Source of the DNA: Herminiimonas arsenicoxydans
GTDB taxonomy: Bacteria > Pseudomonadota > Gammaproteobacteria > Burkholderiales > Burkholderiaceae_D
Assembly: GCA_000026125.1 (NCBI GenBank)
Contig: CU207211.1
Location: 1,984,001 to 2,048,000, forward strand
Direction of reading: 5' to 3'
Length of the DNA stretch: 64,000 nt
Shown: piece by piece, positions 7,174 to 38,410 of the stretch
Layout of the letters: each line of letters starts with the position of its first letter
Numbering within the stretch: position 1 is the stretch's first letter
Program-made: the position numbers and the translations under genes
The notes under the pieces: model-generated
The model's database searches: none
Seen by the model: only the letters and a program-made list of their open reading frames with translations
Told to the model about the DNA's origin: nothing

Positions 7174-9195
7174 ATGCGGCTGTTCTTGTGCGAGAAGCCC
7201 TCCCAGGGCAAAGACATTGGCCGGATTCTCGGCGCCACACAGCGCGGTGAAGGCTGTCTCAACGGTTCCGGCGTCACCGTCACCTGGTGCATCGGCCATC
7301 TCGTAGAAGCCGCTACGCCCGAAGCCTACGACGAGCAGTTGAAGCGCTGGTCCATCGAGCAGTTGCCCATCATTCCCCAGCATTGGCGGGTCGAGGTCAA
7401 ACCGAAGACCGCCACGCAATTCAAGGTCGTCAAGGCGCTTCTGGCGAAGGCGACCCAGCTTGTCATCGCCACCGATGCCGACCGCGAAGGCGAGTTGATC
7501 GCCCGCGAGATCATCGAACTGTGCGGCTACCGCGGCCCCATCGAGCGGCTGTGGTTGTCGGCACTCAACGATGCGTCCATCCGCGCCGCCCTCGGCAAGC
7601 TACGGCCCTCAGCCGAGACGCTGCCGATGTACCACTCGGCGCTGGCGCGATCCCGTGCGGATTGGCTGGTGGGCATGAACCTCAGTAGGTTGTTCACGGT
7701 GCTGGGGCGGCAGGCCGGCTACGACGGCGTGCTGTCGGTCGGCCGCGTCCAGACCCCGACGCTCAAGCTCGTCGTGGACCGCGACCGCGAGATCGCAGCC
7801 TTCGTGTCCGTGCCGTACTGGGCCATCGTCGTGTCCCTGTCCGCAGGTGTCCAGGCTTTCACCGCGCACTGGGTTCCACCCAATGCCTGCACCGACGACG
7901 CAGGCCGCTGCCTGCAGCAGCCGGTCGCACAGCAGGCCATGCAGCAGATCCGCGCTGCGGGCAGCGCCCACGTAGTGTCGGTTGAGACCGAGCGCGTGCG
8001 CGAAGGCCCGCCGCTGCCGTTCGACCTGGGCACCTTGCAGGAGGTGTGTTCAAAGCAGCTCGGGCTGGACGTGCAGGAAACCTTGGAGATCGCCCAGGCC
8101 CTGTACGAGACGCACAAGGCCACGACATACCCCCGCTCGGATTCCGGCTACCTGCCCGAGAGCATGTTTGCCGAAGTGACCACCGTTCTCGACAGCCTGC
8201 TTAAGACCGATCCCTCGCTGCGCTCGATCATAGGCCAGCTCGACCGTTTGCAGCGCTCGCGCGCCTGGAACGATGGCAAGGTCACGGCCCACCACGGCAT
8301 CATCCCGACGCTCGAACCGGCGAACCTCTCCGCCATGAGCGAGAAGGAACTGGCCGTGTACAGGCTCATCCGGGCGCATTACCTAGCGCAGTTCCTCCCT
8401 CACCACGAGTTCGACCATACTGTGGCCAAGCTTTCGTGCGGTGGGCAGAACCTTGCGGCCACGGGCAAGCAGGTTGTCACGCCGGGCTGGCGCCAGGTGC
8501 TGGCCGAGCCGCAGTCCGAGGACGGCGATGGCGACGGCGACACCGCGGCCCGCGCCCAGGTGCTACCGGCGCTGCACGAAGGTCTGGCATGTCAGGTGGC
8601 CGATATCGATCTGAAGGCACTCAAGACGCTGCCGCCCAAACCGTACACGCAAGGCGAGTTGGTCAAGTCTATGAAAGGCGTCGCCAAGCTGGTGTCCGAT
8701 CCCCGCCTGAAGCAGAAGCTCAAGGATACGGTCGGCATCGGCACCGAAGCGACCCGGGCCAACATCATCGGCGGCCTGATCGCCCGCGGCTACCTCGTAA
8801 AGAAAGGGCGCGCCATCCGCGCCTCGGATGCGGCTTTCACCTTGATCGATGCCGTGCCTGCGGCGATTGCCGACCCCGGCACCACCGCCGTCTGGGAACA
8901 AGCGCTCGACATGATCGAAGCCGGCCAGCTCACGCTGGATGTGTTCATCGGCAAGCAGGCCGCATGGATTTCGCAGTTGATCGCGCAGTACGGCAACGCG
9001 TCCCTGTCTATCAAGGCTCCCCAAGGGCCGACATGCCCGCAGTGCGGCGCACCCACGCGCCAGCGCAGCAGCAAGAGCGGCCCGTTTTGGTCGTGCAGTC
9101 GCTACCCGGACTGCAAAGGCACGCTGCCGGTCGAATCCGGCAGCTCCAAGCGCGCCGCCTCGCGCCCGCGCCGTAGCGGCCGCAAAGGCTCCTGA
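7174..9195 (+). CDS. topB: DNA topoisomerase III
   Basis: This 673-aa type IA topoisomerase has a TOPRIM domain at the N-terminus (MRLFLCEKPSQGKDI; TDADREGELIAREI near 100-113). The catalytic tyrosine is in TTYPRSDSGYLPE at about residue 319. A C-terminal zinc ribbon at about 619-646 (CPQCGAPTRQ...CSRYPDC) leads into a basic tail. It relaxes or decatenates DNA and resolves intermediates of ICE replication and transfer. TopB homologues are fixed members of this ICE class. The start follows a weak ribosome site (GATGAACGGAT), but the conserved MRLFLCEKPSQGKD begins there. Confidence 0.95.
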   Translation: MRLFLCEKPSQGKDIGRILGATQRGEGCLNGSGVTVTWCIGHLVEAATPEAYDEQLKRWSIEQLPIIPQHWRVEVKPKTATQFKVVKALLAKATQLVIATDADREGELIAREIIELCGYRGPIERLWLSALNDASIRAALGKLRPSAETLPMYHSALARSRADWLVGMNLSRLFTVLGRQAGYDGVLSVGRVQTPTLKLVVDRDREIAAFVSVPYWAIVVSLSAGVQAFTAHWVPPNACTDDAGRCLQQPVAQQAMQQIRAAGSAHVVSVETERVREGPPLPFDLGTLQEVCSKQLGLDVQETLEIAQALYETHKATTYPRSDSGYLPESMFAEVTTVLDSLLKTDPSLRSIIGQLDRLQRSRAWNDGKVTAHHGIIPTLEPANLSAMSEKELAVYRLIRAHYLAQFLPHHEFDHTVAKLSCGGQNLAATGKQVVTPGWRQVLAEPQSEDGDGDGDTAARAQVLPALHEGLACQVADIDLKALKTLPPKPYTQGELVKSMKGVAKLVSDPRLKQKLKDTVGIGTEATRANIIGGLIARGYLVKKGRAIRASDAAFTLIDAVPAAIADPGTTAVWEQALDMIEAGQLTLDVFIGKQAAWISQLIAQYGNASLSIKAPQGPTCPQCGAPTRQRSSKSGPFWSCSRYPDCKGTLPVESGSSKRAASRPRRSGRKGS

Positions 9196-21420: not shown

Positions 21421-21429
21421 TCTGCTGTC

Positions 21430-21463
21430 TGCCGGCATCCTTTCGGGGGTGCCGGCATTTTTC
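21430..21463 (+). terminator. Rho-independent terminator
   Basis: TGCCGGCA (21430-21437) pairs with TGCCGGCA (21450-21457), itself a palindrome, with TCC/GGG extending the stem, then TTTTTC. It ends the core block just before cargo island 1. Confidence 0.85.
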
Positions 21464-21558
21464 TAGGAAATTGCTGCTCGGAGGATTCGATCACCGCCCC
21501 GGTCCCAGCGCGGGGAAGGCTAAACTGATCAGACAATACCGAGATTCAAGGAGGCACT

Positions 21559-22338
21559 ATGGCTATGGTGATCGAAGCAGCATATGCAGATGGTACTGGT
21601 GCAGCCAACGCACTGCATATGTCTCAGGCGCAGTGGGAAGAGTTGCAACGGGCGTACTGCGTCGGTGATCTGCTGATGCCTTGCTGCAACGCTCCAGCGA
21701 TTCCCAAGGTTAGTGCTAATGGGTACCCCTTCTTCGCGCATCTAGGAGGTGCGTGCAGTACTTCCGAAGAAAGCCAATGGCACCTGGCGGCCAAGATACT
21801 TGTGCGCAGCGTGCTTGAAGATCTTGGATTCCGTGCCTCGGTTGAAATGCCGGGTTCGGGTGATGCAGGTCGCTGGCAGGCTGATGTCTGGGGTGAGCGC
21901 AATGGGGTTAGGTTGGCTGTCGAGATCCAAAGATCGTATCAGTCGCTCCGTGACTACCGTAAACGCCAAGAGCGGTACCGCGAGGCGGGCATCAAGTCTC
22001 TTTGGTTGCTGCGGCAGGAGCGATATAGCACTCTCACCAAGAGCATGGGAAAGGAGCGTCTGCGCACCGAGTTTGGGGGCAAGTTCCCTTCGGCCGGCCA
22101 CTTCGGCCCGTGCCTTTCTGACCTGCCGGTCGCGATGCTTGAGCTAGATCCGGCCCCAACGGTCAAGGGTGCCGGATTCTTCAACGCAACCCTTCCAAAC
22201 ATACTTGAAGCAGTGCTTAGTGAGCGCTTTCTTTGCATCAACGGTCTATGGTGTATCGATAACCTAGACTCGATGAATAACGCCGCCAGACTCGCGCGCG
22301 AGCGTTTCGCAGCCAATCGCTTGGCTGCAAAGATGTAG
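21559..22338 (+). CDS. CoiA-like competence/nuclease-fold protein
   Basis: This 259-aa protein resembles CoiA-like proteins. An N-terminal part (about 30-75) ends in YPFFAHLGGACSTSEESQWHLAAK. An endonuclease-like core follows: WQADVWGERNGVRLAVEIQRSYQSLRDYRKRQERYREAGIKSLWLL, in which D (WQADV) and E-x-Q (AVEIQ) fit the D-x(n)-E-x-K/Q pattern of PD-(D/E)xK nucleases. CoiA is linked to transformation and recombination. Base composition is less GC-rich than the flanks, and the gene converges on the Gabija-like pair. It may be a third component or a separate cargo gene. The ATG follows AAGGAGGCACT. Confidence 0.72.
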   Translation: MAMVIEAAYADGTGAANALHMSQAQWEELQRAYCVGDLLMPCCNAPAIPKVSANGYPFFAHLGGACSTSEESQWHLAAKILVRSVLEDLGFRASVEMPGSGDAGRWQADVWGERNGVRLAVEIQRSYQSLRDYRKRQERYREAGIKSLWLLRQERYSTLTKSMGKERLRTEFGGKFPSAGHFGPCLSDLPVAMLELDPAPTVKGAGFFNATLPNILEAVLSERFLCINGLWCIDNLDSMNNAARLARERFAANRLAAKM

Positions 22339-22404
22339 CTCGACTGTGGTGTTGCTCGACATGCGCCGACGCAGCACCGACACTCCAGATTCCCGGGTTC
22401 ACAC

Positions 22405-24219
22405 TCAAATGCCAGCGGCACGCATTCGCGCCTCCAGCTCATCAAGGAATGGCGAGCGCCCAAAGCGCATAGGGCCATAGCGGCCATCAACGAAGCCCGA
22501 ATACAGCATGTGGACCTCGTCGCGAGCACGTGTGAGTCCCACATAGAAGAGCCGGCGACTTTCGCGCAACTTCTCTGGAGTTTCATTGCGCCACGGCAGA
22601 TTTCCGAGGTCGAGTCCAACCATGATGACGACGTCGTACTCACAGCCCTTTGCGGAATGCAGTGTCAGCAGATTCAGGTGATCGGGCGAACCGTCCCGAC
22701 CGCCCAAACTCGTGATGTCTAGCGAAGCCAGTGCACCGCCTTCAGCGAGCGCTGCCGTCATGCGATCCAGTTGCTCCTTCTGATCAGCGAGCGCCAATTC
22801 AGCCGCCAGCAGATGATCCACTACACCGTTGCGCAGCGAAGCAACAAATTCTCGCGCAGGTTGCTGGTCAGCACGCAGCTCCCATAGCAAGGCGGTTAGC
22901 TCTTGCTCTTCGCGCTTGGCCTGTGAATCGTCCAAGCTCGCCCGATGAAATGCGCGATAGCGGTCGAGTAGTCCACGCAATTGTGGGCGTCCAACACGCC
23001 AGCCACCCGCGCACCACGCCGCACAATCTTCTACCCAACTTGTTAGGGCAACCTTGCGGTAAGGTGCTGCGGTATCCACACGGATGTGATCGAGACCACC
23101 GGTTGCCACAGCTTCAGCCACGATATCGCCTGCGCGATAGTCTTTGTATAGGATCGCGATATCGCCCAGTGTTCGTCCCGGCTTGGAGGCTAAGGCCGCC
23201 GGAATGATCTGCGCGACGGCGTGCGCAGCCTGGTCCGCCATACCACCCGGGCGCAGGACAAATTCGATGGTCGTTTGTCGCGCAGGATCGCTCGCTTGAT
23301 AGCCTCGGGCTTCTCCAAGCGCCATCTCTGACGCAGTCACGATCCCTGCACCAGAACGGTAATTTAATTGAAGCTGGACAGGCTCAATGTCTCTGCGAGC
23401 CGCCAATTCCATGAGCAACGCGCCATCAGCTCCCGTAAATCCATATATCGACTGATCCGCATCCCCGACAGCGAAAAGTCGGACACCCCCGTCGAAGGCA
23501 AGGCGTTTGACGATGCGATGCAGTGCCACGCCTAAATCCTGGTACTCATCCACCGCGAGCACGGGGAATTTTGCCTGAACCAGAGGTAGTACCCAGTCGT
23601 GCTCGGCGATCAAACGCTGGCCGAAGACAACCATGTCATCGTAGTCAATCAGCCCCTCGTCGCGCAGAGCGGCCTCGTAGGCCTCGGCCCAGGCAGCGAG
23701 TTCCTCCTCGCTACGCCAAGCGACGCTATTTCGATTGAGCACGGAACGGCGATGCCGCCCGAGGTCAATAACTTTGTACGGATGGTTCTGGCCGAAAAGC
23801 GCATCTCCAGTTTGCTTCAACAACCGATCACTGACTCGTTGAGTGGCTACCGAAAGTGGGAAAGATATGGGCAGGCCGGCCAGGCGTCCATACGGCATCA
23901 AGAGATGACGCAGACAGAACCCATGGACCGTACCAATGAAAAGATTAGGTGCCTGCTGAAGTCCCAAGTTTTCAATTCGGCGAGCGAGTTCGCGAGCGCA
24001 CTCCTGGCTATAAGTGATGCACGCAACGCCACGAGGGGCCTCGACGTCTTCGGCCAGGATGCGGGCGAGCTTTAGGACGAGTGTCTTGGTCTTACCGCTC
24101 CCGGGACCAGCGAGTACCACACAATGTCCTTGAGAGTTGTAAGCTGCCAACTGCCCTGGATTTCCAGCCAACTCGGCAGCCTGCGCCAGGTAGGCTGTAC
24201 CGACGTTACGCGACGGCAT
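22405..24219 (-). CDS. gajB: UvrD/PcrA-like helicase, GajB-like
   Basis: This 604-aa superfamily 1 helicase shows Walker A VVLAGPGSGKTKTL (about 36-46), GTVHGFCLRHL, VDEYQDL (about 225-231), VGDADQSIYGFTGAD, LNYRSGAG, LTLHSAKGCEYDVV and LFYVGLTRARDE. Together these cover the UvrD motif set. Its ATG (24219) lies inside the 3' end of the OLD-nuclease gene, overlapping it by 14 bases. That gene order and coupling define Gabija systems, where GajA cuts DNA and GajB helps sense nucleotide depletion or DNA ends. It is longer than the Bacillus GajB (about 494 aa). An extra upstream in-frame ATG exists but lies within the neighbour's coding region. Confidence 0.78.
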   Translation of the reverse strand: MPSRNVGTAYLAQAAELAGNPGQLAAYNSQGHCVVLAGPGSGKTKTLVLKLARILAEDVEAPRGVACITYSQECARELARRIENLGLQQAPNLFIGTVHGFCLRHLLMPYGRLAGLPISFPLSVATQRVSDRLLKQTGDALFGQNHPYKVIDLGRHRRSVLNRNSVAWRSEEELAAWAEAYEAALRDEGLIDYDDMVVFGQRLIAEHDWVLPLVQAKFPVLAVDEYQDLGVALHRIVKRLAFDGGVRLFAVGDADQSIYGFTGADGALLMELAARRDIEPVQLQLNYRSGAGIVTASEMALGEARGYQASDPARQTTIEFVLRPGGMADQAAHAVAQIIPAALASKPGRTLGDIAILYKDYRAGDIVAEAVATGGLDHIRVDTAAPYRKVALTSWVEDCAAWCAGGWRVGRPQLRGLLDRYRAFHRASLDDSQAKREEQELTALLWELRADQQPAREFVASLRNGVVDHLLAAELALADQKEQLDRMTAALAEGGALASLDITSLGGRDGSPDHLNLLTLHSAKGCEYDVVIMVGLDLGNLPWRNETPEKLRESRRLFYVGLTRARDEVHMLYSGFVDGRYGPMRFGRSPFLDELEARMRAAGI

Positions 24220-25990
24220 CGCGGATATGCTCCAGCGCAGAGCGAATGTAGGCCGGGCAAACGTCCTCAGACACCGACGGCGCAAGTGCCTGTGCAAATC
24301 TCCCCTTGCCAATCCGTTCAATCAACTTCAGCAGCCGGTCTTCATCGACCTGATCCGGATCATCCACCCACTCTTGCAATGCGTCCCGGGTGACTTGCCT
24401 CAGCGGCAACTCCTGCTCGATTACCGACTTCATCGCCTCGGTCATTCCGGCGGCAAATAGGTCGGATTCCAGCGTGCTCTCGTTGACGAAGTATCCAAAC
24501 TCTGCGGCGTATTTGAGCACCTCATCTATATCCAGGTCATCGTAACCATATTCGTCATCGACCTCGTTTAAGAGATTAATTAATCGCCTGTGGGCTAGTG
24601 GAGGTTTGCCATTGACCGGGTCGCGATCTGTCAAAATTACATGTGGAATATTTAGCCCTTTAGGGCCCAAAAGCTTCACATAAGGAGTGAAGTTCGTCCC
24701 CCCGACCGAGCACACAGTGATTCCAAGTATGTCGAAAGGAATCCCGAGGGCGTCGGCGAACGCGGGAATGATGAAGCGCTCGGCGTCCCCTTCAACCAGA
24801 ATCACTCCCCGGGAAAATAATATTTCTCCGCGAGTGACGTCGATGTAGCGCTGGAGGTCGTCTTCATCCCTCTGTGTGAAAGGTGTGTTCGCGGTCGAAA
24901 CCGCGACGGTTTTCCCGTCCGTTGCGTTATGACGCAGGAGAACGATGGACCTAATCGGTGTAACGCTTGCGATATGCGGCGAGTGAGTAGTGAGAATTGT
25001 CGTCAGTGGAGGGGCTTCGTCCTCATCTTCCGCTCTTGTGCCGAGAAAGTAGCGATAGACAAGACGCTGGACATGCGGATGCAGGTGCGCTTCGGGCTCC
25101 TCGACGACGAAGAATGTGTGGTCGCGCTCCCCCTCGGAGACGAGACGGTCGAGTTCGAGGCTCTTCAAGGCCAGGAAGATCAGATTCGCCGTTCCTAGGC
25201 TGGCATCGCCGACACCGCGAACACCGTTGTCGATAAGCAGCCGAAGGCTACGCAGCAATGCATCCACTCGTGTAGGTGCAAGTCCGAGCGATACCGGGAC
25301 AGCATGTTGCCCCCCGGCGATTGCGATCAGCCGTTCGCTGATCCGTTCTGCTGTCGCTACCACTTCCTCGTGTCCAGCCAGCTCTCGCTGTGCTTGGTCG
25401 ACCTGATTCTGAATCTCCTCACGGGCGTCATCATCCAACGACGCGGCAAGATCCTCAATGAGTGGCCTCAATGGCGAATTGCGCCAGCTCGCAAGGTCCT
25501 TCTCAGCGTCACGCAGGGCTACCTGAACATCTATTGGCAACATCCGGCGAAGTGCGCCGCCGATACGCATTTCGGGATCGTTGCCACCGAAGATCACATA
25601 CTCATAGTCCTTCAACGATTCCGGGGCGCGCCCCAGGCCCGCCTTAGGCTGGAAGCGGTAGGTGAGTCGGGCCACCATGGGTGGGCCAGGATCAATCACG
25701 CAATCGTTGAGGTGAGCCATCAGCCGGGGATCGTTTGTGAAGTCCGTTAGATCCACAGAGACCTCAATGGTCGCACCAACCTTGTCTTCGCCAAGTCCGT
25801 CCCAGAAATGTTCAAGCCCCAGTTGTCGATCGCGTTCAGACAAGCCCGGATCAAGGATCAACTGCAGGCCGCGAATGAAATTGCTCTTGCCAACCTTGTT
25901 CTCTCCCACGATGACGATACTTTCCCCCGTCTCGACATCAACATCCGAGAAATTGGCGAAATTGATCAACCTGACCCGAGAAACCCTCAT
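24206..25990 (-). CDS. gajA: OLD-family ATP-dependent endonuclease, GajA-like
   Basis: This 594-aa protein combines an ABC-type ATPase with a C-terminal TOPRIM nuclease. Walker A is GENKVGKS (29-36). Walker B is FFVVEEPEAHLHPH, and the H-loop is LTTHSPHIASV. The TOPRIM glutamate is in ILVEGDAERF (E near 400) and the D-x-D in ILTDRD (about 455-457). This is the class 2 OLD layout of GajA. It is adjacent to, and overlaps, a UvrD-like helicase. Established Gabija systems abort phage infection by nicking DNA when NTPs fall. Whether this exact pair is called Gabija by a profile search needs testing, but domain order and length fit well. Confidence 0.8.
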   Translation of the reverse strand: MRVSRVRLINFANFSDVDVETGESIVIVGENKVGKSNFIRGLQLILDPGLSERDRQLGLEHFWDGLGEDKVGATIEVSVDLTDFTNDPRLMAHLNDCVIDPGPPMVARLTYRFQPKAGLGRAPESLKDYEYVIFGGNDPEMRIGGALRRMLPIDVQVALRDAEKDLASWRNSPLRPLIEDLAASLDDDAREEIQNQVDQAQRELAGHEEVVATAERISERLIAIAGGQHAVPVSLGLAPTRVDALLRSLRLLIDNGVRGVGDASLGTANLIFLALKSLELDRLVSEGERDHTFFVVEEPEAHLHPHVQRLVYRYFLGTRAEDEDEAPPLTTILTTHSPHIASVTPIRSIVLLRHNATDGKTVAVSTANTPFTQRDEDDLQRYIDVTRGEILFSRGVILVEGDAERFIIPAFADALGIPFDILGITVCSVGGTNFTPYVKLLGPKGLNIPHVILTDRDPVNGKPPLAHRRLINLLNEVDDEYGYDDLDIDEVLKYAAEFGYFVNESTLESDLFAAGMTEAMKSVIEQELPLRQVTRDALQEWVDDPDQVDEDRLLKLIERIGKGRFAQALAPSVSEDVCPAYIRSALEHIRDAVA

Positions 25991-26146
25991 TTACGCCCCC
26001 GTCCACTGGTGTTTTAACAAATAGTAGCAGTCAAGCGGCCGGCCTCCATCCGCCGACCGCGACTGAGCTTTTCCGTTTCGGCGCCCTCAAGGCCGCTTTT
26101 GTTCGACTAGACCGCTGCCGGCAAATCGGACGCAGCGTGGTTCGCA

Positions 26147-29320: not shown

Positions 29321-31507
29321 ATGTCGGGGAAACAGCCGGTCGAGGTTCTGCTTCGCCCAGCGGTGGAGCTATATACCGTCGCGGCGTGTGCAGGCGCCGC
29401 GTTTCTGTCCCTGGTGGCCCCGTGGTCGCTCGCGCTGAGCCCCGCCATGGGTGTCGGCAGCGCGCTGGCGTTCGGAGCCTATGGCGCGATCCGCTACCGC
29501 GATGCCCGCGTCATCCTGTGCTACCGGCGCAACATCCGTCGCCTGCCGCGCTACGTGATGACCAGCAAGGACGTGCCGGTCAGCCAGCAACGTCTGTTTG
29601 TGGGACGCGGCTTTCTGTGGGAGCAGAAACACACCCATAGGCTCATGCAGACGTACCGGCCAGAGTTTCGGCGCTACGTCGAGCCGACGCCGGCCTATCG
29701 GCTGGCCCGGCGCCTGGAGGAACGGCTGGAGTTCGCGCCGTTCCCGCTGTCCCGGCTATCGAAACTCACCGGCTGGGACGTGCCTTTCAATCCGGTGCGG
29801 CCGCTGCCGCCAGTGGGCGGCCTGCCGCGCCTGCACGGCATCGAACCCGACGAGGTGGACGTCAGCCTGCCGCTGGGTGAGCGCGTGGGCCACTCCTTGG
29901 TTTTGGGAACGACAAGGGTGGGCAAAACACGTTTGGCCGAACTCTTCGTCACTCAAGACATCCGCCGGAGGAACGCCGCGGGCGAACACGAGGTCGTGAT
30001 CGTCATCGACCCCAAAGGAGATGCCGATCTCCTGAAGCGGATGTATGTCGAGGCCAAGCGCGCGGGCCGCGAAGGCGAGTTCTATGTCTTCCATTTGGGG
30101 TGGCCGGACATTTCGGCACGCTACAACGCCGTAGGCCGATTCGGTCGCATCTCGGAAGTCGCCACCCGCATCGCGGGGCAGCTCTCCGGCGAAGGCAACA
30201 GCGCAGCCTTCAGGGAATTCGCGTGGCGCTTCGTCAACATCATTGCCCGCGCCTTGGTGGAACTGGGGCAGCGCCCGGACTACATGCTGATCCAGCGGCA
30301 CGTCATCAACATCGACGCGCTGTTCATCGAGTACGCCCAGCACTACTTCGCCAAGACCGAGCCCAAAGCCTGGGAGGTGATCGTCCAGATCGAGGCCAAG
30401 CTCAACGAGAAGAACATCCCGCGCAACATGATTGGGCGCGAGAAGCGCGTGGTGGCGCTGGAGCAGTACCTATCCCAGGCCCGTAACTACGACCCGGTGC
30501 TCGACGGCCTGCGCTCGGCGGTTCGCTACGACAAGACGTATTTCGACAAGATCGTCGCGTCTTTGCTGCCGCTGCTGGAGAAGCTCACCAGCGGGAAGAT
30601 TTCCCAGCTTCTGGCGCCGAACTATTCCGACCTGGCCGACCCCCGCCCGATCTTCGATTGGATGCAGGTCATCCGAAAGCGCGCAGTCGTCTATGTGGGC
30701 CTGGACGCGCTATCCGATGCCGAGGTCGCCGCAGCGGTCGGCAACTCGATGTTCAGCGATCTCGTTTCGGTGGCAGGCCATATCTACAAGCACGGGATCG
30801 ATGACGGCCTGCCGGGCGCATCGGCTGGCACGCGCGTGCCGATCAACGTCCACGCGGATGAATTCAATGAACTGATGGGTGACGAGTTCGTGCCGCTGAT
30901 CAACAAAGGCGGCGGCGCCGGTCTGCAGGTCACCGCGTACACGCAGACGCTTTCGGACATCGAGGCCCGTATCGGGAACCGCGCCAAAGCGGGTCAAGTG
31001 ATTGGCAATTTCAACAATCTGTTCATGCTGAGGGTCAGGGAGACGGCCACCGCCGAACTGCTGACCCGGCAATTGCCGAAGGTCGAGGTCTATACGACCA
31101 CCATCGTCTCCGGCGCGACCGACAGCTCGGACATCCGCGGCGCGACGGACTTCACCAGCAACACGCAGGACCGCATCAGCATGTCCAGCGTGCCGATGAT
31201 CGAGCCGTCGCACGTCGTCGCCTTACCCAAGGGCCAATGTTTCGCATTGTTGCAGGGCGGCCAGCTTTGGAAGGTTCGCATGCCGCTGCCGGCACCGGAC
31301 CCCGATGAGGTCATGCCGCAGGATCTGCAACAACTGGCGGGCTACATGCGCCAGAGCTACAGCGAGGCCACGCAGTGGTGGGAGTTCACCAGTTCCCCGG
31401 CGTTGCAGGACGGGGCCTTGCCCGACGACCTGTTGGATGATGCCGCTGCGGCCGAACCTGGCCCGGTGGCCACCGACGACAGCGCCGGCAATGAGGCCTC
31501 GCCATGA
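29321..31507 (+). CDS. traD: TraD-type conjugative coupling protein (VirD4-like)
   Basis: This 728-aa coupling ATPase has N-terminal transmembrane helices (about 18-60). Walker A LVLGTTRVGKTRLAEL is near 193-208, and IDPKGDADLLKR is in the RecA fold. A Walker B-like VHADEFNEL is at about 508-516, followed by QTLSDIEARIGNR, a TraG/VirD4 motif. The C-terminus is acidic and disordered. It couples the relaxosome to the mating channel and uses ATP to pump DNA. It overlaps the next gene by 4 bases (ATGA). The family is the TOL/SXT-type TraD found in ICEs. Confidence 0.93.
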   Translation: MSGKQPVEVLLRPAVELYTVAACAGAAFLSLVAPWSLALSPAMGVGSALAFGAYGAIRYRDARVILCYRRNIRRLPRYVMTSKDVPVSQQRLFVGRGFLWEQKHTHRLMQTYRPEFRRYVEPTPAYRLARRLEERLEFAPFPLSRLSKLTGWDVPFNPVRPLPPVGGLPRLHGIEPDEVDVSLPLGERVGHSLVLGTTRVGKTRLAELFVTQDIRRRNAAGEHEVVIVIDPKGDADLLKRMYVEAKRAGREGEFYVFHLGWPDISARYNAVGRFGRISEVATRIAGQLSGEGNSAAFREFAWRFVNIIARALVELGQRPDYMLIQRHVINIDALFIEYAQHYFAKTEPKAWEVIVQIEAKLNEKNIPRNMIGREKRVVALEQYLSQARNYDPVLDGLRSAVRYDKTYFDKIVASLLPLLEKLTSGKISQLLAPNYSDLADPRPIFDWMQVIRKRAVVYVGLDALSDAEVAAAVGNSMFSDLVSVAGHIYKHGIDDGLPGASAGTRVPINVHADEFNELMGDEFVPLINKGGGAGLQVTAYTQTLSDIEARIGNRAKAGQVIGNFNNLFMLRVRETATAELLTRQLPKVEVYTTTIVSGATDSSDIRGATDFTSNTQDRISMSSVPMIEPSHVVALPKGQCFALLQGGQLWKVRMPLPAPDPDEVMPQDLQQLAGYMRQSYSEATQWWEFTSSPALQDGALPDDLLDDAAAAEPGPVATDDSAGNEASP

Positions 31508-32253
31508 AGGATGCCGCCTCGACCGCGCAGCGGGAGCAGAACCAGCGCCAAGGCCTGATCGTCGGCACCATCACCTTGCCGTTCCGGCTGCTGGGGGTGC
31601 TGATCGGCTCGCTGCTGTTCTCCATTGTCGTGGAGTGCGTCGGAATGCACCTGTTCTGGAAGGACGAGGGCTGGCGACACTCCCAGCAGATGTTGCAGTA
31701 CGAGTTGGGGCACCTGTCCAACCACTTCACGCGCAGCGTGGTCGTGCAGGAACCGGGGCGCACGGCGCACGAGCTGGTGGATACCGGATACGAATGGGTG
31801 TTCGTGCGCTCGGGCTTGCTGGAGCGCATGAGCCAGACCGCCGAGCGCGCCCGTGCACCCAGCCACGGGCAGACACGCAACTTTCGCTACTACATCAGCC
31901 AGGCCTATGTCTGGACCGAGAGCTACCTGATCGCCGCAGCCTTCACGACGCTGACCTTCCTTGTGCGCCTGCTGGTCCTGGTGCTCACGTTGCCGCTGAT
32001 CCTCACCGCGGCATTCGTCGGCCTGATCGACGGCCTAGTGCGGAGGGACGTGCGCCGGTTCGGCGCGGGCCGCGAATCGGGCTTCATCTACCACCGCGCG
32101 AAAGCAAGCCTGATGCCGCTGGCCGTTCTGCCCTGGGTCACGTACCTGGCCTTGCCGATCTCGGTGCATCCACTGCTGATTCTGCTGCCGAGCGCCGCCT
32201 TGCTGGGGCTGGCCGTGAGCCTGACCGCGGGCAGCTTCAAGAAATACCTTTAG
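31504..32253 (+). CDS. TIGR03747-family ICE membrane protein
   Basis: This 249-aa integral membrane protein has at least four hydrophobic helices: LLGVLIGSLLFSIVVECVGM near 25, TTLTFLVRLLVLVLTLPLILTAAFVGLIDGL near 140, then LPWVTYLALPI and LLILLPSAALLGLAVSL. It is conserved immediately after TraD and probably stabilises the coupling complex. It ends the first half of the transfer operon. Directly after it the core is broken by cargo island 2. Confidence 0.82.
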   Translation: MKDAASTAQREQNQRQGLIVGTITLPFRLLGVLIGSLLFSIVVECVGMHLFWKDEGWRHSQQMLQYELGHLSNHFTRSVVVQEPGRTAHELVDTGYEWVFVRSGLLERMSQTAERARAPSHGQTRNFRYYISQAYVWTESYLIAAAFTTLTFLVRLLVLVLTLPLILTAAFVGLIDGLVRRDVRRFGAGRESGFIYHRAKASLMPLAVLPWVTYLALPISVHPLLILLPSAALLGLAVSLTAGSFKKYL

Positions 32254-32282: not shown

Positions 32283-34907
32283 TCATCGGTTCTGCAGAAC
32301 ATCTAACGCAGCGTCCAACGCCGTAATCGATTCGACAATGACTCTCACTAAGGAGCGGTCGAACTCGTGGTCTCGCTGGGAATCGTGGACACCGCTGTTG
32401 AGACACCCCCATTCAATGCTTCCTGCACCAACACCAAGCAGCCGGGTCAAAGCGACAACGACGTCTGGCGCGCCAGCATGCTGCGCGGAGATGCGATCGA
32501 CGGCTGATCTCAACTTTGCGCATTTGTTGTTCAATTCCCAGGGGGAGCGTGGCCCGCCTAGCTTGAGTTCGATGCGCCCATCTGCTCGCCGGCCCAGCCA
32601 AGTCCAGAGACGGTCAGTCAGACTCTCCAGCGCGGGCCGCGCCTGGCGCAGCGCCTCACGCTTCTCATCGGCTGCCAACGCCTGCTGGGCCAACAGGACG
32701 TAGTTCTTCGTCGGTGGATCGCTGTCAACGCGCAGCTCATGCTCGCCCTGGTGCGGGAGGAACTTGTAGCGCTTGATGGACCCGGCCCGCCGGGCGCCCA
32801 ATTCCTGCTGGATCCGGTGCAGAAACTCCTCGGCGTGTGAGGTGAGGATGACCTGCTTGCCGACGAGCAAGCCATCCTCGAAGAAGGTACGCCAGATTCC
32901 GTCACGATGGTCATCGTCGATCGCGTTGACGACGTCATCGAAAATGACCACGGGGCACCCCTGCGCGATGTTCTTCGCCAGCAGAATCGCCAGACCCAGG
33001 CACTTGATATGCCCTTCGCTGAAGACCACCAGCGCGTCATAGCGCACGCCAGGCTCACCGGTGAACTCTACTTCGATCTTGCCGTTTTCGGCGACAGGCA
33101 GCCACAACGCGTGCAAGAGGTCGCCAGGCGGATCAGCACGATTGAATGCGTTGTACAGATTGCGTGCCTGTTCTCCGAGGCCCTGGAGCAGCACGCCCGG
33201 CAATGCGGCCAAGTAGGCTTGGATTTCGGGCAAGAAGCCGTCGTAGGCGGCCTTGACCCGCAGGTGGTGCGCGACTACCGGCACTTCGGTTGCGACCGAC
33301 TCGATCAACTCACGGTTCGCCTCGTCAAATTGGGCCACGGTCTGGCGGGCAGCGGCCATTTCTTGGTCGGCTGTCATGCGTATGGTCCGCAGCCGTTCGA
33401 TCTCCAGCCGGTGCTGGTCCAGTGCGTCCCGCTCCCGGGCCAGCGCCCCGCGCAGGGCATGCGCTTCGCGGGCTTGCGCGTCGGCGCGCTCGATGATTTC
33501 CGTGACCTGCAGCAGAGCGTTCCAGGCACGCCGGTCGCCATCGACCCATGCGCCAAGCCAGGCGCCTGTCGAGGTAGGCGGCAATGGAGGCAGGCCTGCT
33601 GCCTGCAACTGTGCAGGACAAGCGTTTGCGCCAACCGCGACTACCCGACGCATCTCGTCCCACAGCGCCCGCACCGCCTCGCTCAACTGCGTCCGTAGGC
33701 CGGCTTCCTGCTGCTGGAGGGTGGCCAACTGCGCGAGCTGCTCCAGGCCCGTGCGGGCCTTGGCGAAAGGATCCTGTGCGACAGCAGCCAATCCGGTTCC
33801 GCATGCGGGACAGGTGGTCGCCCCGTCAGTCAAGGCCAGCACAGCCTCGTAGAGCTTAGCGTACGACACTTCCCCAGCACGCGCCGAAAGCTGTCCGGTG
33901 GCCGCCTGCCACAGGCCTTGAAGGTGATAAGCCTCATCCAGCAGCGTCTGCAGCCGCGCTTGGCTCACCTCATGAACGGCAGGTGGGACGGCAACCAGTT
34001 GCGCCTGGACGTACGGCAGCCGCCCTTGCTGCTCCGGTGTGCCGAGCAGCCAGTCAACGCAAGCCTGGTACGTCGCGCCGGGCGACATTCGTTGCGCCAG
34101 CGCTTGCTCGGAGTTCTCCACCGCCGCGATCTTTTGCGGATAAGCAGCGATCGTCTGTTCAGAGTTCGCCAACTGCAAGCGCCGCTGCGCGAGTTGAGTA
34201 GCCTGGGCGCCGACGAGCATCAGGTCTTGGTCGAGCGCGGGATTGAAGCCGCGCACGAAGTCGCTGAACTGATCCACGCCAAACAAGGTAGCGATGAGCT
34301 GCCGCTGATCGCCCGGAGTACGCGCCGCGATGCGGGCGAAGTCATCGAGGCGGTTCTTTTCGATGAAGCAGAAGCGGTACTCCGCTTCGTTGGGCTGCAC
34401 AGCCTGGGCCTGGTCTGGTGCTCCGGAAGACAGGACGGGCGCGACATGGCGACGCAACCGGGCATTGTTGCAGTATGTCCGTTGGTCGACCCGCTTGACT
34501 TGGGCCTCGCTGATGGAGCCGAGCATCGCCACTTCCAGCGCCTCGCAGAAGCTGCTCTTGCCGGTACCGTTGGCGCCATAGACCAAAGTGATGTCGTGGC
34601 TGAGGTCGAATGTCTCTTGCCGCATGAATCCGCGAAACGGTCCCACCTCAAGCTGGCGCAGGCGCCCCAGCGCCGGCCCGACTTCGGGTCCGTGGCCATC
34701 TCCCTGGTACGCGACCGGCATCTGCGCCAAATGGGCGACGGCCAGTGGCGCCATGCGGGTGGAGCGTCCACGGCGCGCTGCACCAACTTCAGCCAGAGGT
34801 TGCAGGTGATCAAGCACCAGATGCGCGAGCCGGCACACGTCGTCATGCACCTGGCGTTGCGCCAAGTGCGCCAAGAAGCGGTGGTACTCCGAATGAATGC
34901 TTGCCAT
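32283..34907 (-). CDS. Rad50/RecF-like ABC ATPase with a CPAC zinc-hook-like motif
   Basis: This 874-aa protein has an N-terminal extension (1-85). The ATPase follows: FRGFMRQETFDLS, Walker A GANGTGKS (111-118), then a long helical part carrying CPACG (C366, C369), reminiscent of the Rad50 zinc hook. An ABC signature-like FSEGH is near 628, Walker B VVIFDDVVNAIDDD near 653-666, and an H-loop LTSHAEEF follows. About 150 extra C-terminal residues have no motif I recognise. The ATG follows GAGGGGGCTGC, 100 bases after the DUF3800-like gene. Such ATPases power several anti-phage systems, but I cannot match this operon to one with certainty. Menshen-type and ABC-three-component systems are the comparators to test. 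Confidence 0.72.
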   Translation of the reverse strand: MASIHSEYHRFLAHLAQRQVHDDVCRLAHLVLDHLQPLAEVGAARRGRSTRMAPLAVAHLAQMPVAYQGDGHGPEVGPALGRLRQLEVGPFRGFMRQETFDLSHDITLVYGANGTGKSSFCEALEVAMLGSISEAQVKRVDQRTYCNNARLRRHVAPVLSSGAPDQAQAVQPNEAEYRFCFIEKNRLDDFARIAARTPGDQRQLIATLFGVDQFSDFVRGFNPALDQDLMLVGAQATQLAQRRLQLANSEQTIAAYPQKIAAVENSEQALAQRMSPGATYQACVDWLLGTPEQQGRLPYVQAQLVAVPPAVHEVSQARLQTLLDEAYHLQGLWQAATGQLSARAGEVSYAKLYEAVLALTDGATTCPACGTGLAAVAQDPFAKARTGLEQLAQLATLQQQEAGLRTQLSEAVRALWDEMRRVVAVGANACPAQLQAAGLPPLPPTSTGAWLGAWVDGDRRAWNALLQVTEIIERADAQAREAHALRGALARERDALDQHRLEIERLRTIRMTADQEMAAARQTVAQFDEANRELIESVATEVPVVAHHLRVKAAYDGFLPEIQAYLAALPGVLLQGLGEQARNLYNAFNRADPPGDLLHALWLPVAENGKIEVEFTGEPGVRYDALVVFSEGHIKCLGLAILLAKNIAQGCPVVIFDDVVNAIDDDHRDGIWRTFFEDGLLVGKQVILTSHAEEFLHRIQQELGARRAGSIKRYKFLPHQGEHELRVDSDPPTKNYVLLAQQALAADEKREALRQARPALESLTDRLWTWLGRRADGRIELKLGGPRSPWELNNKCAKLRSAVDRISAQHAGAPDVVVALTRLLGVGAGSIEWGCLNSGVHDSQRDHEFDRSLVRVIVESITALDAALDVLQNR

Positions 34908-35007
34908 GCAGCCCCCTCTACACAGGAAGACGCTTCGATGGCGTCCTTGATGATGTTGATCGGTCGCCAGCGCAGTAGGCACAGGCGGGTCATGCTTCCA
35001 TTCGCTA

Positions 35008-36060
35008 TTACGGTTTGTGGAAGTTCTCAGCAAAATAGTCGATGACCTGCCCCGCTTGGGATCCCTGACGGAAACGCTTTTGCTCCTCGAAGTCGATCGA
35101 GGGCAGCATATGGATCAGTTGATGATCGGCGTACAGCGCCATGACCTTCTCGGCATCCAGTACCCCGGCGCGTTGTCCGGTAAGCGTATTCGCCGCTTCG
35201 ATGGCCGCGCCGATCATCACGTCCGCCACTTGCACTGCAGGACTGTGCTTTGAATCGATCTGAGTCACGGACTGAAGCTTGAGCGGAAAGGTGATGCTGG
35301 CGATCTCCGATTGACGAAACGTGATCGGTTTCTCATGGCGGATGTACCGCTGCAGCAGGTCGTGATAAGTGAGCAGGTTCTTGGACTGATCGTGCTCGAC
35401 CCGATACGGGCCGTCAGCCATGATTTCCATCCGACTGACCAGGGACTGCAGCACCACGAAAGCAGCATCGGTGTTGACGCCCGGCGTGACGATCGCCTTC
35501 AGGCATTCAGGGGCAGCGAACTGCGCAAGCGGGCCAAGCGCTTCCGGCAGTTCCCACCAGCGCGATGCGCACGCCGCATCGATCAGGTTCCCAAGCGCCT
35601 CCGAGCTCTTTTCCTTCACCGCGCGCTGGAAGCTGACCAACAGCCGGTCGAGCGCGCCTTTGCCGAGGAGCGTCGGTCCAACCGTATACAGCAGCGACGC
35701 AAGCGAGTAGTTCTGCCCGTCTTCGTAGAAGTCCATGCCGCGCTCGTAGTAGAACGGCTCGACCGCGTAGTCCAGGAACATCAGCAGCAACAGGTAGCGC
35801 TTGTCGCAGACGTAGGTCACGCACTTGTGGTCGGTTAGCAAGTCGCGCTGCAGCGCCATCAGACGGGGGTGATTGGCTGGGCGCCGAGCCAACGCCCGGT
35901 ACTTGAGTTCGTCCGCCTGAAGCTTGGGAAAGTGCTCCCGGATCAGGCGCCCGGCCTCGTCATCCTCAATGGCGATGGCCGTCGCTCCTTGGAACCGCTG
36001 CTCAGGGTTCATCAGGTCAAAGCCGGTATAACCACTTTCATCGATCCGGAAGCATTCCAT
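35008..36060 (-). CDS. DUF3800-like protein (possible RNase H-fold nuclease)
   Basis: This 350-aa protein starts MECFRIDESGYTGFDL and near its end contains HSPAVQVADVMIGAAIEAA. DUF3800 proteins begin with an I-D-E-S-G/D strand and carry a late 'Q-x-A-D' motif; both provide acidic residues (here D7, E8 and D280) of a predicted RNase H-like active site. This suggests a nuclease effector, but catalysis is not shown. Its ATG directly follows the TGA of the 52-aa gene with no spacer. The 3' end lies 101 bases before the ATPase start. An in-frame start with no other candidate fixes the 5' end. Confidence 0.68.
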   Translation of the reverse strand: MECFRIDESGYTGFDLMNPEQRFQGATAIAIEDDEAGRLIREHFPKLQADELKYRALARRPANHPRLMALQRDLLTDHKCVTYVCDKRYLLLLMFLDYAVEPFYYERGMDFYEDGQNYSLASLLYTVGPTLLGKGALDRLLVSFQRAVKEKSSEALGNLIDAACASRWWELPEALGPLAQFAAPECLKAIVTPGVNTDAAFVVLQSLVSRMEIMADGPYRVEHDQSKNLLTYHDLLQRYIRHEKPITFRQSEIASITFPLKLQSVTQIDSKHSPAVQVADVMIGAAIEAANTLTGQRAGVLDAEKVMALYADHQLIHMLPSIDFEEQKRFRQGSQAGQVIDYFAENFHKP

Positions 36061-36219
36061 TCAACTCTTCCCCTGGACAATGGACACTCCGATCCTGTCG
36101 GCCAATTCGAGCACGGCATCGTAGGCACCGACGTCGTTGTGCGAAGGCTCAGACGCGGCCGAGGATGGTTCACTAGGTGGCTCGCCATCGGCGGGCAGAT
36201 TGGCGCATCGCTTAGTCAT
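36061..36219 (-). CDS. Very small protein linking two defence genes (52 aa)
   Basis: This frame was found by reading the minus strand between two larger genes. ATGACTAA overlaps the stop of the upstream gene by 8 bases, and its own TGA abuts the ATG of the DUF3800-like gene. The protein has a serine/proline/acid-rich first half and a helical end (AYDAVLELADRIGVSIVQGKS). No family is recognised. In ABC-three-component systems the middle component is also small, but I cannot show similarity. The tight packing argues that it is translated. Confidence 0.55.
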   Translation of the reverse strand: MTKRCANLPADGEPPSEPSSAASEPSHNDVGAYDAVLELADRIGVSIVQGKS

Positions 36220-36886
36220 GGGTCATTTCAAGAATTTCATCCACAGCGGCCGCAATGACACGGTCCGGTGCCGAAGCGAGTAGATCCTGGGGACGATTTC
36301 CACCCAGGAAGCTGTTTTCGGAGCGGAACCAATAAGCCATGCCCCAGCCGTCTTTGTGTCCTTCGAAGGTTTCAATCACTTTGGCCAGCGATTTCAGTGG
36401 ACGGAAACCAGCGTCACGATCCAGCCCGTAGTCCGGAAAGTAATCGATGCCACCGTGGTTGATAGCGAAGATTTGGCGTTGCTTCTTCCACTTATTGGGC
36501 TGAGCGCTCGGGTTCCGGGTGCTCAGTTCCGCGAGTTGTGCGATGTTCGCGGCGGTCAACCAGTCTCCACTTTCCAACACCGCCTTACGCGCCTGCACCA
36601 GCAGGCTCGCTTCCTTGAGCAGCCGGGGCGACAGCGGATTGCGCGGCACGAGCATTTCTGCCAGCCGTTCGAGCGATTCGCGGTCCTGACGTTCAAGCAG
36701 CACCTCGAACATGGATGAAGCGACGTTGGTGAAGTTTTCCGCCAATGCCGCGAAAACACTGGGCTTGATGTGGTCGAACGCCACCACCAGCACGTGGTCA
36801 GCCTGCGACCGAGCGAGTTGAGCCTGAATCTCTTTGGGCGTACCCACAAGGGTCGACACGCCGAGACGGTCTGCAACGACGCTCAT
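36212..36886 (-). CDS. Possible MbcA/ParS/Xre-type toxin-binding protein
   Basis: This 224-aa protein reads MSVVADRLGVSTLVGTPKEIQAQLAR at its start. Its second half contains LLKEASLLVQARKAVLESGDWLTAANIAQL, a helix-turn-helix-like stretch, then FRPLKSLAKVIETF...WGMAYWFRSENSFLGGNRPQDLLASAPDRVIAAAVDEI. The last block resembles the MbcA_ParS_Xre (DUF2384-like) fold (W-x-x-N/S-x-x-L-G-G-x-x-P-x-D-L/LL). It may regulate or neutralise the operon. The start at 36886 follows TTGAGGAGTCAGTC, a strong ribosome site; a longer in-frame start at 36949 has none. First gene of the four-gene operon. Confidence 0.62.
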   Translation of the reverse strand: MSVVADRLGVSTLVGTPKEIQAQLARSQADHVLVVAFDHIKPSVFAALAENFTNVASSMFEVLLERQDRESLERLAEMLVPRNPLSPRLLKEASLLVQARKAVLESGDWLTAANIAQLAELSTRNPSAQPNKWKKQRQIFAINHGGIDYFPDYGLDRDAGFRPLKSLAKVIETFEGHKDGWGMAYWFRSENSFLGGNRPQDLLASAPDRVIAAAVDEILEMTHD

Positions 36887-36990
36887 GACTGACTCCTCAA
36901 ATGGGTTATTTACGCTATTTGATATTACTATATCGACCATAACCTTCAATGCCCAGACACTTCGGATTCTTGGGACCTAAGGAGCACACC
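36887..36990. promoter_or_regulatory. Divergent AT-rich promoter region
   Basis: These 104 bases separate the ATPase/DUF3800 operon (minus) from the AbiH gene (plus). The tract GGGTTATTTACGCTATTTGA with TATTACTATATC is markedly AT-rich compared with the core ICE and probably carries promoters in both directions. No clean operator palindrome is seen. Confidence 0.5.
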
Positions 36991-37893
36991 GTGCACCCCA
37001 CCACGCTTTATGTAGTCGGCAATGGATTCGACCTGTGGCACGGCATTCCATCGGGCCTCGGACAGTTCAAGGAGTATGTCCTGGCCACAGACCGGGACAT
37101 TCATCGCGAGGTCGAGGACTACCTTCCAGCCGGAGACGACTGGTGCGACTTGGAATTAGCCCTGGCTGAACTGGATGCCGATATGCTGGTCGACAACTTG
37201 GGGCACTTCATGGGGGCCTATGGTGCCGAGGACTGGAGTGATTCAGGGCACCACGACTTTCAGTACGAGGTGGGGAACGTCGTCGAGCGACTGTCCAAGG
37301 GGCTTCGGACGCGCTTTGCCGAATGGATCCGAGACTTGCCCATCCCGACACACGACACCGCCCCGCGACGGCTTGCGACGCTGGATCCACAGGCGCTGTT
37401 CCTGACCTTCAACTACACGAGCACGTTGGACACTCTCTATGGCATCGATCTGGCACGTGTTCTGCACATCCACGGCCGATCCGATGCGGCAGACGATGAG
37501 TTGGTCTTGGGCCACGCCTGGAATCCCCAATCCCGCCCCTCGCTCAACGACCGTCCGGATATCGAGGAGATCGATACCCGGGTGGCTGAAGCCAACGACA
37601 TCATCGACGACTACTTCTCAGCCACCTTCAAGCGTTCCGAGGAACTGATCGCCCAGCATAGGACGTTTTTTCAGGCGTTGGGAGCCATCCAGAAGGTCGT
37701 CGTGCTTGGCCACTCTCTGTCCCCCGTGGATGCGATCTACTTCCAGGCGCTCCTTCAGCAGCCCAGCGTTGCCGCGGCGCGATGGACAGTCGCATGCCGC
37801 AGCAAACAAGAGTGGCCTGATAAGGAACAACGGCTCGTCGCCCTGGGTTTGTGGCCGGGTGCTGGACAGCCATCTTCTTGGGACGCACTGTAG
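36991..37893 (+). CDS. AbiH-family abortive-infection protein
   Basis: This 300-aa protein matches the AbiH family: N-terminal TLYVVGNGFDLWHGIPSGLGQFKEYV (the GNGFD-x-x-H motif), FLTFNYTSTLDTLYGI and VLHIHG in the middle, and KVVVLGHSLSPVDAIYF later. AbiH proteins confer phage resistance in lactococci; the mechanism is not settled. The start is a GTG after AAGGAGCACACC, a strong ribosome site that the ATG at 36949 lacks. It is transcribed away from the ATPase/DUF3800 operon. The next core gene (38030) begins after 136 bases. Confidence 0.83.
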   Translation: MHPTTLYVVGNGFDLWHGIPSGLGQFKEYVLATDRDIHREVEDYLPAGDDWCDLELALAELDADMLVDNLGHFMGAYGAEDWSDSGHHDFQYEVGNVVERLSKGLRTRFAEWIRDLPIPTHDTAPRRLATLDPQALFLTFNYTSTLDTLYGIDLARVLHIHGRSDAADDELVLGHAWNPQSRPSLNDRPDIEEIDTRVAEANDIIDDYFSATFKRSEELIAQHRTFFQALGAIQKVVVLGHSLSPVDAIYFQALLQQPSVAAARWTVACRSKQEWPDKEQRLVALGLWPGAGQPSSWDAL

Positions 37894-38029: not shown

Positions 38030-38410
38030 ATGTTGGCTCCGATCTGGCTGCGCGCCGCGCATCGCGGCGTGCCCACTTTTCTCGTGACGGCCCTCCTGCT
38101 GGGCCAGTCCCCGATGGCGTTGGCCGAGCCCCCCACGCAGCGCCAGGAACTGGTCGCGGCGCTGCGCCAGCTCGACGCGCTGGAGCGCACCGTCGCCGAC
38201 AGCGCCGCGCATGCCCCCATCCAGCCGGGAGAGCGCTACCACTTCGATTACCCGCGGCTGCTGGCTGACCTAGCGCGCGTGCGCGCCGGTATCCAGGCCC
38301 ACCTCTCACCTTCGCGTGCCCAGCCGCGCGACCCCTCCGAACTGGCCGGCGACTACCGCACTGAGCGGGCCGTCGAGCCATCGCCGACGACCGCGGAGGT
38401 CAAGCCATGA
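38030..38410 (+). CDS. RAQPRD-family transfer protein
   Basis: This 126-aa precursor has a signal peptide (TFLVTALLLGQSPMALAE). A helical domain follows, QRQELVAALRQLDALERTVADSAAH...RYHFDYPRLLADLARVRAGIQ, typical of the ICE RAQPRD family (TIGR01690); a RAQPRD-like 'RAQPRDPSEL' follows near residues 99-108. It is periplasmic and probably part of pilus assembly. It opens the second transfer operon and overlaps the next gene by 4 bases (ATGA). The start has the ribosome site CAGGAATGGCGCG. Confidence 0.85.
   Translation: MLAPIWLRAAHRGVPTFLVTALLLGQSPMALAEPPTQRQELVAALRQLDALERTVADSAAHAPIQPGERYHFDYPRLLADLARVRAGIQAHLSPSRAQPRDPSELAGDYRTERAVEPSPTTAEVKP

Follow-up and report, generated by a model that had tools for sequence, protein, structure and literature searches.

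The window, a 64,000-nucleotide stretch of Herminiimonas arsenicoxydans DNA (contig CU207211.1, positions 1,984,001 to 2,048,000), carries four tightly packed minus-strand genes encoding an antitoxin, a 52-aa product, a DUF3800 protein and a Rad50/SMC-like ATPase (Table 1). The first two reading frames overlap by 8 bases and the second and third by 0 bases, and the block lies between a TIGR03747 family gene and a RAQPRD gene, all as described in the original prediction. That prediction listed four genes and did not include a fifth cargo gene at the site, which is divergent from the block and belongs to the AbiH family (PF14253, 241.7 bits vs. a cut-off of 30.9). The block had also been described as lower in GC than its flanks. 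This is correct for about half of it: in 1-kb bins, the region from 35 to 38 kb is clearly low (0.565-0.602), but that from 32 to 35 kb (0.626-0.652) is not lower than the adjoining 30-32 kb (0.623-0.643). The site corresponds to GI-Hotspot 8, a published defence hotspot whose variable region extends from traD to RAQPRD (PMC12629846), and the window cargo has identical boundaries, traD/TIGR03747 to RAQPRD. The window cargo set differs in being unnamed in section 18 of that paper, and no near match to the block was found in the E. coli genomes searched. The expectation that the cargo is of a defence type is supported.

Table 1. Features at the locus, numbered from the first base of the window
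Feature	Position	Strand	Remarks
TraD + TIGR03747	29321..32253	+	left boundary of hotspot
TIGR03747 family gene	31504-32253		flank of block
Rad50/SMC-like ABC ATPase	32283..34907	-	874 aa; CPAC hook, HEPN-like C-terminal domain; proposed effector
C-terminal HEPN-like domain, residues 736-874	32286..32702	-	invariant R757, E761, N837, H841
CPAC zinc-hook-like motif, residues 366-369	33801..33812	-	both cysteines in 30/30 rows
Walker A GANGTGKS, residues 111-118	34554..34577	-	
GACGC...GCGTC hairpin, ATPase leader	34929..34945	-	near-invariant in 11-row alignment
DUF3800 protein	35008..36060	-	350 aa; predicted RNase H-fold nuclease (fold from published work); partner in one ATPase lineage
RES toxin remnant	36061..36219	-	52 aa; N- and C-terminal ends present, RES domain lost in frame
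RES/Xre-type antitoxin, gene 1	36212..36886 (ATG 36886)	-	224 aa; frame intact; 79.4% identity to Azotobacter gene
AbiH family gene	36949..37893	+	divergent from block, same cargo; PF14253 E 1.9e-71; PADLOC AbiH E 1.2e-17
RAQPRD gene	38030-38410	+	right boundary of hotspot

The first gene was originally likened to an antitoxin, and its relatives do sit with RES toxins. The Xre/MbcA/ParS C-terminal domain family PF09722 matches the protein at E 0.0028 and 18.1 bits, below the Pfam cut-off of 24.5, and the Azotobacter relative, whose gene lies directly before a RES toxin gene, also scores below the cut-off (19.6 bits). RES is named beneath the match in 22 of the 30 antitoxin rows listed, an adjoining RES gene was viewed in Azotobacter (L017) and E. 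kobei (L018), and the two genes occur together on many plasmids. The 52-aa product had been read as a small linker, a reading that was rejected since the ORF consists of the two joined ends of a RES toxin gene. Both ends resemble RES toxins (the C-terminal end matches Paraburkholderia L048 with 72% over 25 aa by tblastn), and the overlap with the antitoxin gene is the same 8 bp in the window, L017 and L018. PF08808 is present in the L017 and L048 toxins; a Pfam scan of the 52-aa ORF, where only the gene ends are left, found no family. Judged from the sequence, this RES/Xre operon lost the catalytic core of its toxin through an in-frame deletion of about 180 codons, which left both the reading frame of the antitoxin and the join with the following gene intact. 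Because the RES domain is deleted, an NAD+ phosphorylase is not expected in the window. The locus thus resembles RES-Xre systems (COG5654-COG5642; SlvAT and others) in its antitoxin, gene order, 8-bp overlap and toxin-gene ends, but its toxin gene is without the RES domain.

The DUF3800 assignment is supported by Pfam (PF12686, 25.5 bits vs. a cut-off of 21). The IDESG and QVAD motifs noted earlier lie at residues 6-10 and 277-280; the RNase H fold is taken from published work. Residues D7, E8 and D280 are invariant in 9/9 alignment rows, and dN/dS is 0.056-0.116 across the four pairs measured. A PDB sequence search with the protein returned nothing usable (best E 0.24). An RNA linked to DUF3800 was considered and is unsupported: Rfam gave three matches on the window, all far below gathering (E 0.48-1.8), and none at gathering in 10 loci where DUF3800 does not adjoin the ATPase, and in the intergenic region RNAalifold gave no base pair in which both partners had changed.

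The DUF3800 and ATPase genes are 100 bp apart in the window, and the gap, counted from the last aligned base, is 100-105 bp in 13/13 pair loci. The pair is present in 13 of the 83 ATPase loci among the matches listed, a count from which plasmid loci and L037 (same record as L019) were left out; four of the 13 are copies of the same element and nine lie without sign of the window insertion site, meaning that the flanks covered, of limited length in L059 and L100, match neither RAQPRD nor TIGR03747. Nucleotide homology extends from the DUF3800 ATG to the stop codon of the ATPase and breaks off close to the two gene ends in L046, L049, L050, L059, L064, L067, L099 and L100, and continues upstream of DUF3800 in L048 only. 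The distances of the two proteins correlate (Mantel r 0.88, with 2 of 10,000 permutations as high, for the window and eight of the nine outside loci, L067 being left out). Flanking families were scanned for 55 ORFs from eight of the nine outside loci (without L100; best 25 families per scan). In L064, Shango genes precede the pair on its upstream side. The DUF3800 and ATPase genes are thus a two-gene cassette that moves as a unit. That they are unrelated neighbours, an idea drawn from plasmid loci only, was rejected because the pair is conserved in wider loci. Literature searches on DUF3800 and related terms found no paper on the DUF3800-ATPase pair.

The original reading takes the block as a single four-gene defence operon, in which the antitoxin and the small protein would regulate the ATPase and the nuclease. 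In its favour, the RES stop codon directly adjoins the ATG of DUF3800 in the window, L048 and L017, and L017 has the arrangement up to the DUF3800 start. The complete order antitoxin-RES-DUF3800-ATPase recurs in one other lineage only, Paraburkholderia L048, in which the RES gene is intact. A RES toxin lies near the pair in 2/9 loci elsewhere, L048 and L046, the latter with a different 163-aa RES-domain gene about 1 kb upstream on the same strand. However, the toxin core is gone in the window; tblastn at E <= 1e-4 matches neither the window antitoxin nor the RES toxin of L017 to any pair locus elsewhere, L048 excepted; and of the many plasmid loci that have the antitoxin and RES genes together, the two viewed (L017 and L018) have no ATPase by annotation. 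A four-gene operon is very unlikely on this evidence, and the block is a mosaic of a RES/Xre remnant operon, a DUF3800-ATPase cassette and a divergent AbiH gene.

The ATPase gene ends at 32283, and the ATG at 34907 is its best start, since M1 is invariant in a 7-row alignment and many relatives align from residue 1. The leader hairpin is assigned to the ATPase module because it is kept in several loci with differing upstream genes; being nearly unvarying, it has no covariation support. The predicted Rad50-like layout with a mid-protein CPAC motif is borne out, as Rad50 is the best Foldseek match to the head (E 2.6e-9). The Walker A lysine, signature residues S630/G632, D657/D658 and C366 and C369 (30/30) are invariant in the ATPase alignment. 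The C-terminal domain has R-x3-E (R757, E761) and N-x3-H (N837, H841) in 30/30 rows; against the standard HEPN motif Rx4-6H, N837-x3-H841 is invariant and the arginine is absent. By analogy with the PrrC/RloC triad, R757 may replace that arginine. Among the first 24 VIA-align rows for this domain, 16 are titled HEPN, Csm6 or MntA-HpeT, one more is a HEPN protein according to its abstract, one is a designed binder and six are presumably HEPN. Its hhalign score against RloC-family C-termini (26 of 29 proteins kept) is 26.3, vs. at most 10.1 in six controls. A PDB sequence search with the domain found nothing usable (best E 0.041), and a viral fold library gave nothing at E <= 0.001. Structural modelling suggests that the domain is probably a HEPN-like bundle and a putative RNase.

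Plasmid annotations label the ATPase "double-strand break repair," and its gene has partition genes close by in Kosakonia, while in Rahnella repB and umuD are in the vicinity. These settings would suit an SbcC/Rad50-like factor for repair or element maintenance rather than for defence. The HEPN-like domain, whose putative active site is invariant, and the location in a published defence hotspot argue otherwise, and the annotated regions viewed name neither an Mre11 nor an SbcD gene. A repair factor is quite unlikely.

The distribution of the ATPase bears on how far it depends on DUF3800. The search behind the census took the best 80 among 261 confirmed stretches and gave at least 74 loci, so the proportions are those of a sample enriched for close relatives. 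Among the 83 loci in the matches listed, those without a DUF3800 match include 31 beside DUF6602/SMODS genes of a CBASS-like cluster, in line with CBASS type III as the most frequent cargo of GI-Hotspot 8 in section 18 of PMC12629846, and 37 with neither; two further loci have partial DUF3800 genes, a remnant in L052 and one cut by the contig end in L025. In a tree of ATPase matches with at least 840 aligned columns and no stops, identical sequences being used once (65 rows, 64 different), every DUF3800 pair falls within one 30-row clade whose nearest outgroups are without DUF3800. Relative to the window ATPase, dN/dS is 0.065-0.083 in eight comparisons (two relatives with DUF3800, six without), and for the C-terminal domain it is 0.045-0.087 in seven comparisons. 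One relative set left out L067 (internal stop) and the short matches L025, L116, L052 and L017; set A6 held 28 of 30 rows, without L093 and L097. Purifying selection is similar on ATPases with and without DUF3800.

A different reading of the cassette is an obligate two-component defence, in which the Rad50-like ATPase would recognise phage DNA and license the DUF3800 RNase H-fold nuclease, with solo relatives belonging to other systems. The near-fixed spacing, the correlated divergence, the invariant DUF3800 residues, the low dN/dS of DUF3800 and the position beside Shango genes in L064 are consistent with it. However, L045, L051, L056 and L057, in the same clade, encode ATPases without a full DUF3800 (L052 retains the remnant), and these four are constrained as strongly as paired ones. 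Additionally, 10 full-length DUF3800 relatives with no more than 79% identity were viewed, and the ATPase is missing from the flanks covered in every one. Obligate pairing therefore appears unlikely. The same distribution, with most listed ATPase loci lacking DUF3800, speaks against the original notion of one four-gene system. Its notion of a sensor ATPase controlling a DUF3800 nuclease is not required, since a HEPN-like nuclease domain seems to be part of the ATPase itself.

The favoured and probable interpretation is that the ATPase represents an undescribed family of ABC-HEPN RNases that can work on their own, that DUF3800 is an accessory found in a single lineage, and that the block consists of mosaic cargo modules in an ICE hotspot. 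The ATPase is most likely the active component, modelled as a Rad50/SMC-like head with short coils, a zinc hook and a fused HEPN-like domain. Its head would sense foreign or broken DNA, and ATP binding or the hook state would keep the HEPN domain silent. Once released, that domain could cut RNA, perhaps at tRNA anticodon loops by analogy with RloC and PrrC, which would halt growth and phage spread. DUF3800 would be an auxiliary nuclease that was gained on one occasion and lost on several, rather than an obligatory effector. A more elaborate and rather doubtful version holds that these are compact, solo-capable RloC-like ABC-HEPN RNases, one lineage of which became a two-nuclease cassette with DUF3800, and that the window cassette shares an operon with a core-less RES toxin whose antitoxin was kept, perhaps, as a host shield against the RES toxins of rival elements. 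Should the HEPN assignment hold, a mobile gene that annotations list only as "AAA family ATPase" or under DNA repair encodes a self-contained defence protein that cuts RNA. Additionally, what looks like a tidy operon may be stacked modules, a dead toxin among them, which is a trap for defence discovery based on adjacency.

The original prediction matched the gene set to no named system, and the PADLOC matches listed (those of the ATPase being its best 25 of 89, each covering only part of the protein) likewise cover no such four genes and include no partner proteins of ABC-three-component or Menshen systems. The ATPase shares an SMC/Rad50-type head with Lamassu LmuB, MADS mad3 and Septu PtuA, but the PADLOC rows listed cover only part of it, and the other cargo proteins gave no Lamassu, MADS or Septu partner. 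Foldseek matched Lamassu chains to the head at E 3.1e-7, unlike VIA-align with the whole ATPase model, where LmuB is not among the 50 rows listed. RloC is described as a Rad50-like ABC ATPase that has an inserted CxxC hook and whose C-terminal RNase domain bears the motif Arg-X3-Glu-X36-52-His (PMC2610378). The window ATPase differs in the spacing from E761 to H841 (79 residues), in having LNxGxH rather than ...SH, in an AAA_13 score of 20.4 bits vs. a cut-off of 36, and in an extra helical N-terminal 80 residues ahead of the head. It resembles RloC and PrrC in its Rad50-like head, CxxC insert and R-x3-E ... H C-terminus, and its Walker B has DD, as in three AAA_13 proteins examined. ABC ATPases with a C-terminal HEPN fusion, some on mobile elements, are among the groups described by Anantharaman et al. 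2013 (RloC-like, APECO1_4465 and ERFG_01251; PMC3710099), and the window ATPase is like these in its C-terminal HEPN-like fusion, the latter two groups being compared by description only.

The original prediction placed four minus-strand genes in the cargo block, and all of their coordinates and overlaps are confirmed in the window. Its claim of low GC content holds for 35-38 kb but not for the ATPase gene, which has ordinary GC. The ATPase start codon is the ATG at 34907, preferred over an upstream TTG. An AbiH family gene that the original prediction had missed lies in the same block, divergent from the antitoxin gene. Another stretch of low GC (0.552-0.585) is perhaps a further cargo region.

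The second gene of the block, a 52-aa ORF, is the remnant of a RES toxin gene. The start of its product resembles RES toxins, and its final ~20 residues align to the C-termini of the RES toxins from Azotobacter L017, E. kobei L018, and Paraburkholderia L048; ~180 codons, including the PF08808 region, have been lost in frame. L017 encodes a 79.4% relative of the antitoxin whose gene shares 8 bp with that of a 233-aa RES toxin, exactly as the antitoxin gene does with the 52-aa ORF. Relatives of the 224-aa antitoxin occur in 157 plasmid records (at least 80% query coverage in 30), and RES is named under the antitoxin match in 22 of the 30 rows listed. The remnant is found at 100% in four other loci (L026, L027, L028, and L062), so the lineage of this element has it in common. 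Three comparisons between lineages indicate purifying selection on the antitoxin (dN/dS 0.05-0.12); these values reflect divergence between lineages and not selection after the deletion, since post-deletion copies are identical.

Features of the window and of compared loci
Feature	Locus	Position	Strand	Remark
ATPase gene	window	32283-34907	-	874 aa
GACGC/GCGTC hairpin	window	34929-34945	-	~20 bases before ATPase start
DUF3800 gene	window	35008-36060	-
52-aa ORF	window	36061-36219	-	RES remnant
Antitoxin gene	window	36212-36886	-	224 aa
AbiH family gene	window	36949-37893	+
Low-GC stretch	window	21001-26000
RES-domain gene of another kind	L046	7303-7794	+	163 aa; PF08808 E 9.7e-28
Shango SngA, SngB, SngC	L064	2462-8461		upstream of DUF3800-ATPase pair
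SMODS nucleotidyltransferase and DUF6602 genes	L019; also L029 and others of the set	4854-8991 (L019)		same ICE site
DUF3800 with internal stop	L067	8849-9895		adjoins full-length ATPase
DUF3800 gene of R27	L014	9001-10047		~52% identical to window's

The DUF3800 and ATPase genes form a cassette. At the nucleotide level, homology (~75-81%) covers both genes, from the first codon of DUF3800 through the stop codon of the ATPase gene. In eight loci it breaks off no more than about 30 bases from either gene end, and it extends upstream in L048 only. The two genes are spaced almost uniformly, at 100-105 bp counted from the last aligned base. Among 83 ATPase loci, a sample that builds on 74 loci from the best 80 of 261 confirmed stretches and is enriched for close relatives, a full DUF3800 adjoins the ATPase in 13 (four same-site copies and nine others with no boundary gene within the flanks compared) and a partial one in two (a remnant in L052 and a copy cut by the contig end in L025), while 37 have neither DUF3800 nor DUF6602/SMODS-type genes. 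In the ATPase tree (a quick method, with several forks open), all pairs fall within one 30-row clade whose nearest outgroups, L020 and L065, are without DUF3800. Thus, the pattern is most simply explained by a single gain with several later losses or replacements. L051, the sister locus to L067, has no DUF3800 match. The DUF3800 tree is poorly resolved. No ATPase adjoins DUF3800 in the six plasmid loci viewed or in L110, L111, L114, and L115 (1.5-kb flanks for L110 and L111). Many of the 271 plasmid records with a match, mostly from Escherichia and Salmonella, carry a DUF3800 gene ~52% identical to the window's, R27 (L014) among them.

L048 has the order antitoxin, intact RES gene, DUF3800, ATPase, and in L017 the first 33 residues of DUF3800 lie directly 3' of the RES stop; RES-DUF3800 adjacency is therefore not private to the window's element, and it is met in three lineages only. 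The L046 RES gene sits ~1 kb upstream of a pair and does not match a profile built from the other three RES toxins; a 190-aa ORF overlaps its start.

Measured against the window, the dN/dS of the ATPase is 0.075 for each of the paired relatives L048 and L064, and six relatives that lack DUF3800 (L029, L045, L051, L053, L056, and L057) give 0.065-0.083; the window branch is common to all these comparisons, which are therefore no independent test of solo lineages, and those with L020 and L065 are saturated. L051 against L067 gives ~0.11. The leader hairpin, which may be an attenuator or terminator, is also retained by Erwinia L020 and by loci where other genes lie upstream. In three related Rad50-like proteins (L007, L008, and L009; 950-968 aa) the match stops at residue 699; a similar head with a different C-terminus suggests exchange of the effector end.

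The TraD/TIGR03747-to-RAQPRD site corresponds to GI-Hotspot 8 of a 2025 study (PMC12629846), which describes a predominance of type III CBASS and many uncharacterised proteins there. In L020 the ATPase is the sole annotated gene from TIGR03747 to RAQPRD, and in L018 the RES pair adjoins a short RAQPRD ORF. DUF6602 and SMODS-type genes (Pfam labels taken from L019) adjoin the ATPase in 31 of the 83 loci, 29 of which add PIN and AAA genes; DUF6602-ATPase spacing is 12 bp in 26 and 148-194 bp in five. The ATPases next to these genes are 84-87% identical to that of the window. The clusters, CBASS-like by our own label, are likely type III CBASS, with DUF6602 a candidate effector. Neighbors of the DUF3800-ATPase pair elsewhere include Shango, AbiU2 (L049), integrases (L049 and L059), and genes without defence labels.

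Gene structure, the in-frame deletion, the cassette, selective constraint, and the hotspot site are all shown by the data. The ATPase is modelled as a Rad50 head with a HEPN-like domain. It would sense DNA, RNA cleavage would follow, and growth arrest would result. DUF3800, a predicted RNase H-fold nuclease on the basis of two papers rather than a structure model of the window protein, would play an accessory role. The block is ordinary in part, with its published hotspot, its dead toxin, and a known AbiH; the ATPase, apparently an undescribed ABC-HEPN family, is its one promising element.
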